Shown here: positions 12,074 through 21,738 of the stretch, piece after piece
Layout of the letters: each line of letters starts with the position of its first letter
Position numbering within the stretch: the first letter of the stretch is position 1
Source of the DNA: Spirogloea muscicola
Lineage: Eukaryota; Streptophyta; Zygnematophyceae; Spirogloeales; Spirogloeaceae
Direction: 5' to 3'
Length of the DNA: 31,071 nucleotides
Assembly (NCBI GenBank): GCA_009602725.1
Contig: WELB01000117.1
Span: 113,269 to 144,339 of the forward strand
Translations under genes and position numbers: made by a program
Notes under the pieces: model-generated
What the model saw: only the letters and a program-made list of their open reading frames with translations
The model's database searches: none
What the model was told of the DNA's origin: nothing

Positions 12074-16805
<4,732 letters not shown>

Positions 16806-16880
16806 CCTGCGGCGACGGCGGCGGCGGGCGACCCGGCGCTGGCCACCGGGACGCAGCGGCGGCTGCGCGGGCGGGCGGCC

Positions 16881-18673
16881 ATGAACAACGTGACGATCAA
16901 GCGCGACGCCTCGTTCGGCATCTGGGTCTTCTCCCTCTACAACCTCCTCCTCAAGGCGAGCGCCAGTCCTGCCTGCCGGCAGCCAACGCCGGCAGCCCTC
17001 GTAGCCTCGCATTGCCTCTGAGTGGGAGCTCCCTGCACAGTTCTTGGCGTTCTCTGAGTGCGCAGCTCGTCGAGCTGTTGCCCCAATGCAAGGCCCCACC
17101 AAGCGGCAGTCAGACATCCGTAGATGACAGAGTTGGTCATTCGAAGTCGGTGTACCTCCCACACTGAGTCGCCGTCGAAAGGCCTTCTGGCCAACGCAGC
17201 AGCCCGCGACTGACTGAAGCTTGCTCGCGCGCCTTCCGTCCGCGTCCAGATGTCGTTCCCGTCGTTCGTGCTGTGCATCATGCTCGGCCCACTGGCGCTC
17301 AGCGTCCTCTTCACCGGCCTCTACCTCCTCGACCTCGACGGCCTCCAGATCCCCTCCGATGACTCGCCCGCCTGGCAGGGCCCGCTCGTACGCACCACCG
17401 TCTTCAAGGTCTTCGTGTTTTCCTTCTCGCTGGCTACCATGTACGGGGGCTCGCCTGTGCACCCGCGCTCCCCTTACGCGCTCGCGCTCGCCAACCTCAA
17501 CACGCTCGCCAGCAACCTCCTCTTTGTCTTCATCAGCGGCGCCGGTGCGTCTGCCCTGCTAGTCCCCGACCCTCATGCCAGCAAAAGGAGTTGTGCCACT
17601 TAACTATCAGTCGATGCATCTGCTTCCACAGTCAGGCTCTATGGATAGCTTTGCTGCTTGTCCTCCTGGTCTTGCATAGCATCTGAGACTCTCCCGTCTG
17701 CCCAGAAGGCTTGCCTTGGGCAGGGCTCACGGCCTTGGGACTGACAGTGGTAGCAGCCGGCGTGGGGCCAGTGTTTCAGCGGCTGTCGCAACCCAGCTCG
17801 CCCGTGCAGTGGTCCAAGCACCTGCTCATCACGGACGACCTCATCGGTGAAGCCTCGGCAAGGAACCCCGGCAAGGAGAATCGTAATTACAAGTGAGTCC
17901 CGGGCGCTGCTGGCCTTCACGACCTCCTCCCTCCACGGTCTACTTCCCCGCTGTTGTGCAGAATTGAGGCTCACGCTGACTGCTGCTGCGCTATGCGGTT
18001 GCTGTGCACTGCCAGGCTCGTGGTAGGGAGGCTAATGCTCCTGGGCACGGGCGCAGCGCTCATCGATGTCAAGTTCGACCTCGTCATGCGTCGCACCAAG
18101 ATCACGCGCAATTCGACGTTCGTGCACACCTCCCGCCTGCCGCTCGTGCGGTCAGAGATGTCTCAGCTCAAATATGGCATGGTGATGCGCCACGTGATCA
18201 ACGAGGACAGCCCCCTCTGGAACCAGTGCTCTTACGACGTAAGCAAAGCGGAACCCTATTGCTGCTATGTGGAAATTCTAGTCCCGCTTGGCTACGACAC
18301 AATGAAGCAGTGCCTGACAATTCCTCTGTCATTGTCTGTCGCCACACAGGACCTGGTGCAGGACGATACAAATTTCACCATCACGCTGTCAGGGGTTGAG
18401 AGGACATCAATGCAACAGATTTTCGACTCACGGGTGTACACGGTGTACGACCGCGACGTCCTTTGGGACCGGCAGTTTGCTGACATCGTCAAGATTGACG
18501 CTAAGGGTCAGTACGTTATGTACCAGAATCGGCTCAACTTGCTTGAACCTCCGCCAAATGCGGTGGATGCCACCGAGGATGCGGCTTGGGAGGAGGATGT
18601 GCGGCCTGCTCAAGGCAACTCGCCACGTGCATCAGGCCTGCTCAGGCAGCGGACTGCGTCAGTCAGACAATAG
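16881..18673 (+). CDS. Inward-rectifier potassium channel-like protein (Kir/KirBac family), atypical filter
   Basis: Five exons: 16881-16955, 17250-17544, 17772-17892, 18016-18238 and 18350-18673, giving 345 residues with phases closing. The order is an N-terminal slide-helix segment (SFGIWVFSLYNLLLKMSF), TM1 about residues 30-53, a pore loop, TM2 ending VFQRLSQPSSPVQWSKHLL, and a Kir-type cytoplasmic beta domain (ALIDVKFDLVMRR, RLPLVRSEMS, VMRHVINEDSPLW, YTVYDRDVLWDRQFADIV). TM2 to the SQP junction aligns without gaps to KirBac in my recall. The filter, at 17436-17450, reads TMYGG, not TIGYG. Intron 1 appears to use a GC donor (GCGAGC). The acceptor of exon 4 could instead lie at about 17963 in the same frame. 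The true start may lie upstream in the gap. Confidence 0.85.
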
Positions 18674-19673
18674 TGCCAGCCTTTTGGCAGCACATTTTCG
18701 TGTTCGATCTGCCAATCTCAGCAATCACAGCTGACTTGTAGGGCATAGGCTCAGGATGACAGCTGTGCTATTTGACTAGGTTCTCAAGGTCCACAGCCTT
18801 GAAGAGCTCGAGCTGTTGTGGCTCGTAGACCACAGCTTGGCCGCTTCTCAAACGTGCCTCATTATACCTGGTGGTATTGCTACCTTGTAGCTATGGCTAC
18901 TGCATCAATCTATGTTGATGTTAAGTCAATGTTACATTGTTATACATGTGTTACACATGGTATATACGATTTATTGATGCGCAGGTTTTAGCCAAATTTG
19001 GCTATTCTGCTCCCAGTCAGGCCCTCAGCCCGTGTGCCAATTCACCCCCAGCCCCTGTCCTGCCATTTCGAACGAATTCCCACTGTCCGCATGCAGGTCG
19101 ACTGCCATCATTAATTCATAACTCCTAATAACATGTTCTCATTTTTCGTGAGGGCACCTTCCCTTGGCCTGGCCCATGACCAACGCATCAAACTTCTGCA
19201 AAAGTACATGCTAAGAGAAGTGATGTAGTTCACACATGCATGAATGCATCATCACAGCAATGGCAATCTGCAGAGTGCACCTCCATGCTGGAAGTCCAGG
19301 CCCCCATGTCAGCTCGGCCAAAAACTCTAGCAATTGTACACTGAGGAAAGTACAACAGAAATTCCTGTGCGTTGCTGCCACAAGGTGCAGTCAAGCAGAT
19401 ATGCAGCAGCAACCGCTGCTTGCCATTTATGGCGGGAGTGTCAAAAATCTTGCTACGGGCTGTACATGCTTTTGTCAAGCAAGCTAGTGGGCTTCTCAAA
19501 GCGGCATTCTGAGGTAACATGCCTGGCTGTGAAGGTGGCCCGCGTTTCCGCGGGGCCATTCCTCATCACTTTCGTGCATGCTTGTGCAGTGAAGATGGTG
19601 TCTCGGGCCAAGTATGTGAGACATCTCCGAGCCTGCATCTTGGGAAAAGGGCGCCTGTACTCGACCCTGCTCC
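18674..19673. other. Convergent 3' intergenic region
   Basis: One kilobase between the 3' ends of the channel and methyltransferase genes. It is AT-richer than its surroundings, with no recognisable protein, repeat or RNA gene. Short open frames here match nothing I know. Confidence 0.6.
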
Positions 19674-20634
19674 TCAAAACACCTCGCCAGTGAGCTGCGC
19701 ACTGCGGCTGGTGAGCGGCACGTAGCGCACGCCGGCGGCGACCGAGTCTCGGAGCGTGCCGTCGGGCAGCTTGTCGATCACGCGCAGCTCCTGGCTGGCC
19801 GTGCCGACGGGCACGACCAGGCGGCCGCCGATGGCGAGCTGGTCCACGAGCGCCAGCGGGATGCTCTCGGCGGCGGCGCCGACGTGGATGGCGTCGTAGG
19901 GCGCGCAGGGCGCCCAGCCCTCGCGCCCGTCGGCGCAGTGCAGCTTCAGGGCGCCCGTCTCCAGCAGTGGCGCCGCGGCGCTGCGGCCCACGCTCGCCCG
20001 CGCCGACTCGACGAGCTCTGAGTGCCACGGCCAGCACGACTCCTCGATCGAGGTCAGAGCTGACGGCGCTGATGGCCCCGAAGCAGGAGTATGCATGCAC
20101 GCTTACGTTACTGCGGGCCCACTTGAGCGCTTCGACTGCCATGGAGCCGTGCTGGAGGTGGCCATGAGACAGCCCCGGTGCTGCGAAGGGCAGCAGGGGC
20201 GCAGGGAATGGAGTGGGTATTGCGTGATGGAGGGCCTGAGTGGCCAAGTAAAAAGCAGGGGTGGTGGGGGCGAGGGGGTTCGAACCGGGGATGTGCTCCA
20301 CGCCGATGGTCTTGCCGGCGTCGCCGACCATGGTGGCGAAGCAGGCGGCGAGGTAGCCGCTGCCGGCGCCGACGTCCAGGGCGCGCGCGCCGGGCTTCGC
20401 GAGGTGGTCCTCCAGCAGCTCCAGGCAGAGCGCGTGCATGTGCGGCGCGGAGATGGTGGCGTTGAACCCGATGGGCTGCGGGCTGTCGGCGTACGCGGCG
20501 CACGACGGCGGCACGAACAGGCCGCGGTCCACGGCCGCCATGACCGCCGCGGCTCGGCGCGACGACAGCACGCCCAGCCGCGCCAGCTGCTGCACCAGCT
20601 CGTTGTTGCTGCGCCCGCTGGCCAGCCACGCCAT
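19674..20634 (-). CDS. PCMT: Protein-L-isoaspartate O-methyltransferase
   Basis: Two exons, 20634-20286 and 20017-19674, giving 230 residues, the usual length for the family. The enzyme transfers methyl from S-adenosylmethionine to isoaspartyl residues, starting their repair. Visible motifs are the N-terminal NNELVQQLARLGVL, IGFNATISAPHMHA, the SAM-binding motif ALDVGAGSGYLAACF, GVEHI-PELVESA across the intron, YDAIHVGAAAE and GGRLVVPVG. The C-terminal VRYVPLTSRSAQL is typical. The donor after HIP (GTTCGA) is weak but gives the exact family junction. An upstream in-frame ATG at 20673 has an N at 20665 between the two starts. No organelle signal is obvious. Confidence 0.93.
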
Positions 20635-21738
20635 GGCGCCCCCCGGCGGCGCCAGGCCCGCGGCNGGCCCCATAACCCCCTATGCTCGAATACAATAAGG
20701 ACTCTCTCTCTCCAACTGGGTGTTCAGGGCGAGATTCTTTACAAAGGCCCACCGTCTTGCGGGCGCGGGCCGCAGGCTCTACCGCTCGCGCCTGCGCAGG
20801 CAAATAAGACTGCAGCTGCTGATGTATAAAGAAAGAGCGGCTGCAAAGAGCGTCTTACTCAACAAGCTGTCCTGGCTCGTCGGAGTGGCTCAACGCTTTG
20901 CCGATCTATGAGTCCCTTCGGCTCCCCGACGACCTCTTCTTTTGCACAAGTACAAGGACCATGTCATGCGCAAGGGCGTCGATTGCGCCATGGCGTCGAC
21001 TAGTCTAGATAACGACAAACAGTGACGTGCTAGGCTACACATGTAACAAACCGAATGGAATTGTCGACCTTGTTGGCCAAGCTGAAAGATAACAGTCAAA
21101 CGAGAGGCCAACATTGAGAATTGTTAATAGTCTCACAACATAAGAAGAAAAGTAAATACAGTCCAACTTAGAACTTGTAGCTTCCCCCCCCCCAACTGTC
21201 AGTCCTGGCACAGGATGACAAGTTGGGTTAGCACTTGCATAGTTCACACCGAGGATATCAGGTTGTGGAACAAAATCAACACCAATACATCCATATCACA
21301 TATCTTTACTCCCCGCGCGCCGCACCGCGGCCGCCAAGGCCGCGTGCCTTCCGCCGCAAGGCCCCCTCCCCTCCCCCCCTCCTCCTGCAGGCCGCGCCGC
21401 CAGCCTCCTCCCCCTCCCTCCCTCCTCCCTCTGCAGCTCCTGCTGCTGCCGCTGCTGCTGCTCCTGCCGCTGCTACTGCTGCTGCTGCTGCCGCTGTCGC
21501 GCCAGTCCGACCCATTATCTCTCTGCGGCCTGCGCCCACCTGTCGGCCGCGCGGCGGGCCTATCTGCCTCCTCCTGCTGCCGCAGCTGCCGCTGCTGCTG
21601 CTGCTGCTGCGACTGTTCGACGACCCACTTGCTCGCCGCGGCCGGCGCCCACCTGTCGGTGTCGCGGCGGGGCACCGTCGCCGCAGCCGCCGCCGCCGGT
21701 GCCGCCGCGGCCGGCAGCTCGCGCACGCTCCAGCCGCC
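20635..21738. promoter_or_regulatory. Divergent intergenic region with triplet repeats
   Basis: About 1.1 kb head to head between the methyltransferase and the Cys-rich protein gene. It holds a poly-C run near 21184, dense CT-rich sequence and CTG/CCG triplet runs at about 21430-21620. An open frame crosses into the downstream gene in frame, so an N-terminal extension cannot be excluded. Confidence 0.4.

Follow-up and report, generated by a model that had tools for sequence, protein, structure and literature searches.

Textbooks treat the TxGYG sequence as the mark of a K+ channel, and the carbonyls of its GYG set potassium selectivity. Among the open-licence papers listed as matches, loss of TxGYG on an intact Kir (inward rectifier) scaffold was described for a few bacterial proteins, called NirBac, and for the trypanosome protein TbIRK. 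NirBac1.1, 1.2 and 2.1 come from Anaeromyxobacter and Gemmatimonas, the loop of NirBac2.1 reads TTGTD, and in the excerpts available NirBac1.1 and 1.2 are described as stable oligomers that conduct monovalent cations and discriminate little among them (PMC4607889). TbIRK from Trypanosoma brucei has a GGYVG loop, a pK/pNa of about 7 and a location in acidocalcisomes; the excerpt presents it as the sole IRK-profile match in T. brucei, with no reliable BLAST relatives outside TriTryps (PMC5429665). Other papers describe GYX-type K+ channel homologues in protozoa, whose filter variants are predicted to be non-selective or non-functional (PMC3283738), and TcCat of T. cruzi, which lacks the K+ signature but has no significant identity to Kir (PMC3369953). 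For green algae, a passage on Picochlorum SENEW3 counts two 'inward rectifier potassium channel transporters' (PMC11092101), and no paper on green-algal Kir proteins without TxGYG was present among the open-licence matches listed. Here we analysed a stretch of 31,071 nucleotides from Spirogloea muscicola (C117:113269-144339, from a 153-Mb genome in 471 contigs), referred to as the window in its whole length. It carries a Kir-type gene with TMYGG at the place of the selectivity filter, and this gene belongs to a family of which every locus found in the same genome lacks TxGYG.

Kir scaffold and pore loop of the window gene

The TMYGG loop is encoded by ACC ATG TAC GGG GGC at 17436-17450 on the + strand, in an open frame, within FKVFVFSFSLATMYGGSPVHPRSPYALALANLNTLASNLLFVFISGA. 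The initial annotation had placed this motif in a Kir-like gene, and the placement proved real, with a Kir cytoplasmic domain and pore homology found in the same protein. Pfam analysis of the window protein returned IRK_C alone (3.2e-8). Searched against PDB sequences with phmmer, the 370-residue query matched chain 2wll_A best (3e-13, residues 38-349); the 1p7b and 2wll chains we take to be KirBac1.1. KirBac3.1 followed the 2wll_A-type chains, and animal Kir chains came next. A profile of the family matched the KirBac1.1-type chain at 8e-17 and KirBac3.1 at 1.5e-15 to 5e-14. IRK_C (PF17655) was detected in 5/5 members scanned, out of the seven family proteins given (best 2.8e-8), and the Pfam pore model PF01007 was without a match in these five.

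A bacterial Kir hidden Markov model (HMM) matched 7/7 family proteins, in each case over the pore loop, the second transmembrane helix (TM2) and the cytoplasmic domain, with full-sequence E-values of 4e-34 to 4e-26 in a search space of those 7 sequences. Equally, hhalign of the family against bacterial Kir gave 99.9% and 3.4e-33, and four family members aligned with KirBac1.1 showed 23-25% identity to it. Searches of the alga's own genome with PF01007 and PF17655 gave 0 matches, a result that is uninformative, since they were run exon by exon and since PF17655 was positive in none, and PF01007 in one, of the control genomes. Judged from these matches, the cytoplasmic domain is clearly that of a Kir protein. 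The family therefore has the IRK_C domain and the two-helix, pore-loop homology of Kir proteins, and a TxGYG/TxGFG filter at 0/7 loci. KirBac1.1 and KirBac3.1 (PDB 1p7b, 1xl4) are its nearest solved relatives by sequence and share its domain order, but their filters read TVGYG and TIGYG, and neither is found in the algal proteins. The KirBac filter letters given in the initial annotation were nearly right, the PDB sequence reading TLATVGYGDMHP.

The register of the loop differed between methods. MAFFT aligned the family with KirBac1.1 without a gap in the loop, setting MYGGS (or TFGGS, in three paralogues) on TVGYG. With the bacterial HMM, the pore helix of the window protein was gapped by one residue and a Y was inserted; the TTFGG copies were aligned ungapped with TFGGS on TVGYG, and the other types took one pore-helix gap, after which TSLQT or TGLQP matched TVGYG. 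AlphaFold models of exon 2 alone, which are of low confidence (predicted local distance difference test, pLDDT, of 54 with 7 rows and 68 with 15 rows), gave the order helix, pore helix, loop, helix, with the pore helix ending at the Met or Thr of the loop. The proposal that the Gly-Tyr order is swapped and one residue added thus survives as one of several possible sequence alignments. Given the differing MAFFT and HMM registers and the low-confidence models, the change is better read as a replacement of GYG by a loop with two adjacent glycines.

A gene family with four loop types

The window gene is not the single odd channel that it had first seemed to be. Six more loci of the Kir-type family were found in the genome, and all seven (7/7) are without TxGYG, so that homologues all carrying GYG, the finding that was to overturn the initial annotation, are not what this genome contains. 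Searches with the window protein and with the C288 paralogue recovered the same seven loci, a count that is a lower bound; a C266 match to the C288 query (E 0.6, internal stop) was left out of the family. The paralogue models were trimmed by hand to remove spurious terminal exons at both ends, and their ends are incomplete.

Four loop types occupy the filter position. The loop of the window gene, FSLATMYGGSPVHPRSPY, is of type TMYGGS. Three copies, on C46 (locus L022), C47 (L021) and C66 (L023), carry LSLSTTFGGSPVSARSPY and belong to type TTFGGS, one copy on C288 carries LSLSTSLQTDVTPKSEY (type TSLQTD), and two copies on C42 (L025) and C8 (L026) carry LSLATGLQPEVVPLTPY (type TGLQPE). The glycine-poor loops with an acidic residue, TGLQPEV in L025 and L026 and TSLQTDV in L024, are perhaps stranger than TMYGG. 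Around the loops the scaffold is conserved (SL[AS]T, Y, NxN[AT]L and FVF[LI]SGAVF[AQ]R[LM]SQP); residues 85-131 hold 22 of the 59 columns that are invariant in five members, and a phenylalanine in TM2 is found in 7/7. In a tree of 32 rows, which has long branches and an arbitrary root and leaves out animal Kir, NirBac and TbIRK, the seven algal proteins fall on one branch (100/100) and the TMYGGS and TTFGGS types form one clade (97/83).

Reading all six frames of the seven loci (L021-L027) for [TSA]xG[YF]G gave no hit except a stray minus-strand one in L026, which lies 1.4 kb ahead of that locus's first modelled exon on the upstream side, comes right after a stop and lacks surrounding pore sequence. 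As this was the sole hit, a hidden canonical pore exon was rejected. The absence of GYG at six further loci rules out chance or error as far as the family is concerned.

To assess constraint, we compared the recent copies. Nonsynonymous and synonymous divergence (dN/dS) was 0.0157/0.1499 for C47-C46, 0.0118/0.1501 for C47-C66, 0.0091/0.1398 for C46-C66 and 0.0142/0.1521 for C42-C8, a ratio of 0.07-0.10 in the TTFGGS and TGLQPE copies. In the pore, where 24 columns were aligned, 7 codons vary among these copies, 3 in the triple and 4 in the pair; all of the changes are silent, with 0 replacements. At the codon level, then, constraint on the protein is seen in copies of two of the four loop types, TTFGGS and TGLQPE; the result is limited to these, as close copies are lacking for the window gene and for C288. 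Silent sites between loop types are saturated or nearly so, and the loop change itself lies outside the dN/dS result.

Silent-site divergence is 14-15% pairwise among C46/C47/C66 and between C42 and C8, and C8 and C42 also carry RuBisCO small-subunit genes, at a distance of about 100 kb from their Kir copies. Together these observations point to homeologous or haplotypic segments, and this sequence pattern suggests a hybrid or polyploid genome. The C46/C47/C66 and C42/C8 sets may accordingly represent copies from subgenomes or haplotypes and not distinct genes. The TTFGG copies on C46, C47 and C66 all lie about 2-26 kb from a contig end and are perhaps subtelomeric.

Canonical filters are present elsewhere in the same genome. 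TVGYGD was found at 7 of the 11 places above the Ion_trans_2 cut-off, and no TxG[YFL]G was seen in the stretch read at the remaining 4/11 (fourteen loci were read, ten were positive, and three of these were second copies of a place already counted). A KirBac1.1 query of the genome (E up to 10) gave no canonical Kir among its 6 matches, three of which fell on the cytoplasmic exons of the family (C46, C47, C66) and three on Ion_trans_2-type places (C82, C41, C5). The algal profile, which does not have GYG in its filter columns, matched in 16 of the 398 genomes surveyed, all from the phylum of Paraburkholderia xenovorans, and [TS]xGYG was present in 16/16. TxGYG was also present in 80/80 KirBac1.1 relatives (77 by motif search and 3 by tblastn), these being the best 80 of 397 and a biased set, with GYG inside one of the six search patterns. 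Two scans of viral contigs confirmed 0/20 and 0/29 stretches as family relatives, patterns from the family alignment confirmed 0/51 stretches in prokaryote genomes, and phages yielded 0 relatives. Plasmids gave 2 weak Caballeronia records (21.8% identity, E 5e-3).

Gene model and surroundings

The Kir-type gene lies on the + strand and has at least five exons, which join in frame into 345 residues counted from the first ATG. Exon 1 (16806-16955) encodes the stretch before the first transmembrane helix (TM1); its 5' end is open at an assembly gap and its first in-frame ATG is at 16881. Exon 2 (17250-17544) encodes TM1, the pore helix, the filter loop and most of TM2, exon 3 (17772-17892) the end of TM2 (VFQRLSQP) and the linker to the cytoplasmic domain, and exon 4 (18016-18238) the Kir cytoplasmic domain, including RHVINEDSPLW. 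The remaining cytoplasmic domain and a C-terminal tail are encoded by exon 5 (18350-18673), which ends in the stop codon TAG. Intron 1 (16956-17249) is of the GC-AG type, with aag followed by gcgagc across the junction, and the other three introns are GT-AG. Our own spliced aligner also returned these junctions, but as a self-alignment. GC at third codon positions is 81%, against 60% GC in the introns. The initial annotation was correct that the splice sites lie away from the filter, as the exon 2 junctions are 186 bases upstream and 94 bases downstream of TMYGG.

The assembly gap (16344-16804; A124, N214, A123) covers the gene's 5' end. As the window gene already resembles its paralogues before the ATG (RLRGRAAM vs RKMGRSAM), the true start is probably hidden inside this gap. 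TMYGG is 5 substitutions away from TxGYG in either register tried, so that no single base error, the possibility raised at first, restores GYG and base error is not the explanation. No GYG occurs in the other two frames through the site, and a frameshift behind TMYGG was likewise ruled out. The neighbouring frames, both on the minus strand, are a protein-L-isoaspartate methyltransferase (PCMT) frame at 19453-20679, with a single N at 20665, and a frame containing an RNA recognition motif (RRM) at 13958-15565.

Selectivity of the replaced filter and known systems

By analogy with the described systems, we read the window gene as a Kir-scaffold channel subunit whose filter has been remodelled and is most likely weakly selective among monovalent cations, and give this reading about an even chance (roughly 0.5). 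The predicted subunit consists of two transmembrane helices, a pore loop and the Kir cytoplasmic domain, with other sequence in the place of TxGYG. Four such subunits would still assemble, and the invariant Thr that ends the pore helix would keep an inner cation site. Beyond this Thr, a regular cage with four sites is unlikely to form, and least likely in the glycine-poor types. An outer filter that is wider or has fewer sites could then pass monovalent cations with weak selectivity, as NirBac proteins do, in a pore presumably gated by the cytoplasmic domain as in other Kir proteins. Of the two functions initially suggested, altered selectivity is thus the leading one, with NirBac and TbIRK as precedents.

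A new K+-preferring filter, in which the Gly-Gly pair of TMYGGS and TTFGGS gives backbone carbonyls like GGYVG in TbIRK, is an unlikely alternative reading of the same loops. The K+ preference of about 7 in TbIRK shows that K+ preference without TxGYG is possible, a precedent that includes mutagenesis of its glycines. One filter Gly can also stay in register in the HMM and MAFFT alignments, and the three TTFGGS copies keep this loop unchanged as protein. However, GGYVG occurs in none of the family loops, and the glycine-poor TSLQTD and TGLQPE would hardly build such a cage on the same scaffold. The other function first suggested, a Kir fold that does not conduct and acts as a sensor, as a scaffold or as a dominant modifier of other channels, appears a little less likely again. 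It would account for 7/7 proteins without the filter though the cytoplasmic domain is conserved, and the TM2 phenylalanine in 7/7 is consistent with it, but conservation is among the strongest in the pore helix, TM2 and the flanks of the loop (the 22/59 invariant columns in residues 85-131), and a dead pore need not show only silent codon changes in recent copies.

Two loop classes of unlike length on one scaffold in one genome could also reflect obligate heteromers, with GG-loop and LQ-loop subunits forming a mixed filter in one pore. Two classes are equally expected from separate channels, however, and we consider this arrangement improbable. An artefact through sequencing error, wrong splicing or a pseudogene is highly improbable. 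The assembly gap stops some 630 bases before TMYGG and the first intron is GC-AG, both of which would favour it, whereas the distance of 5 substitutions, the six loci on other contigs that likewise lack TxGYG, the five exons in frame, the low dN/dS in copies of two other loop types and the lack of [TSA]xG[YF]G in six frames of seven loci save for the stray L026 frame all speak against it.

More tentatively, the whole Kir family of this green lineage may have dropped the K+ filter and then diversified into four loop types, each with its own cation selectivity, possibly including a Na+- or Ca2+-preferring channel or mixed-filter heteromers; we regard this as possible but doubtful. If true, the family would be a eukaryotic, paralogue-rich counterpart of NirBac. 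As probable channels of changed ion preference, the family members are a natural test of selectivity evolution. Four natural loop replacements on one scaffold, beside TVGYGD channels, would lend themselves to swap experiments on the loop features that set selectivity. In organisms of this sort, the annotation 'inward rectifier potassium channel' may not denote a K+ channel.

The Picochlorum SENEW3 genes resemble the algal family as Kir-annotated genes of a green alga, although the passage only counts them (PMC11092101). The protozoan GYX variants, as described in the excerpt, keep GY, and the Kir-like parasite homologues there carry GYGS (PMC3283738). TbIRK is, like the algal proteins, a eukaryotic IRK-family protein without TxGYG, but the GGYVG of its pore loop is in none of the algal loops (PMC5429665). 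NirBac, compared by the available description only, shares with the family a Kir scaffold, a pore loop without TxGYG and close relatives with unlike loops; its non-selectivity was measured for NirBac1.1 and 1.2 (PMC4607889). NirBac is bacterial, whereas the algal genes contain introns and bear four other loops. Their genome has 68 chlorophyll a/b-binding family matches, and its RuBisCO small-subunit (RbcS) genes are split into separate exons spaced along contigs that reach 1.5 Mb; both features fit a photosynthetic eukaryote of the green lineage. The family is therefore a new eukaryotic variant of a kind with precedents, and larger than a single gene.
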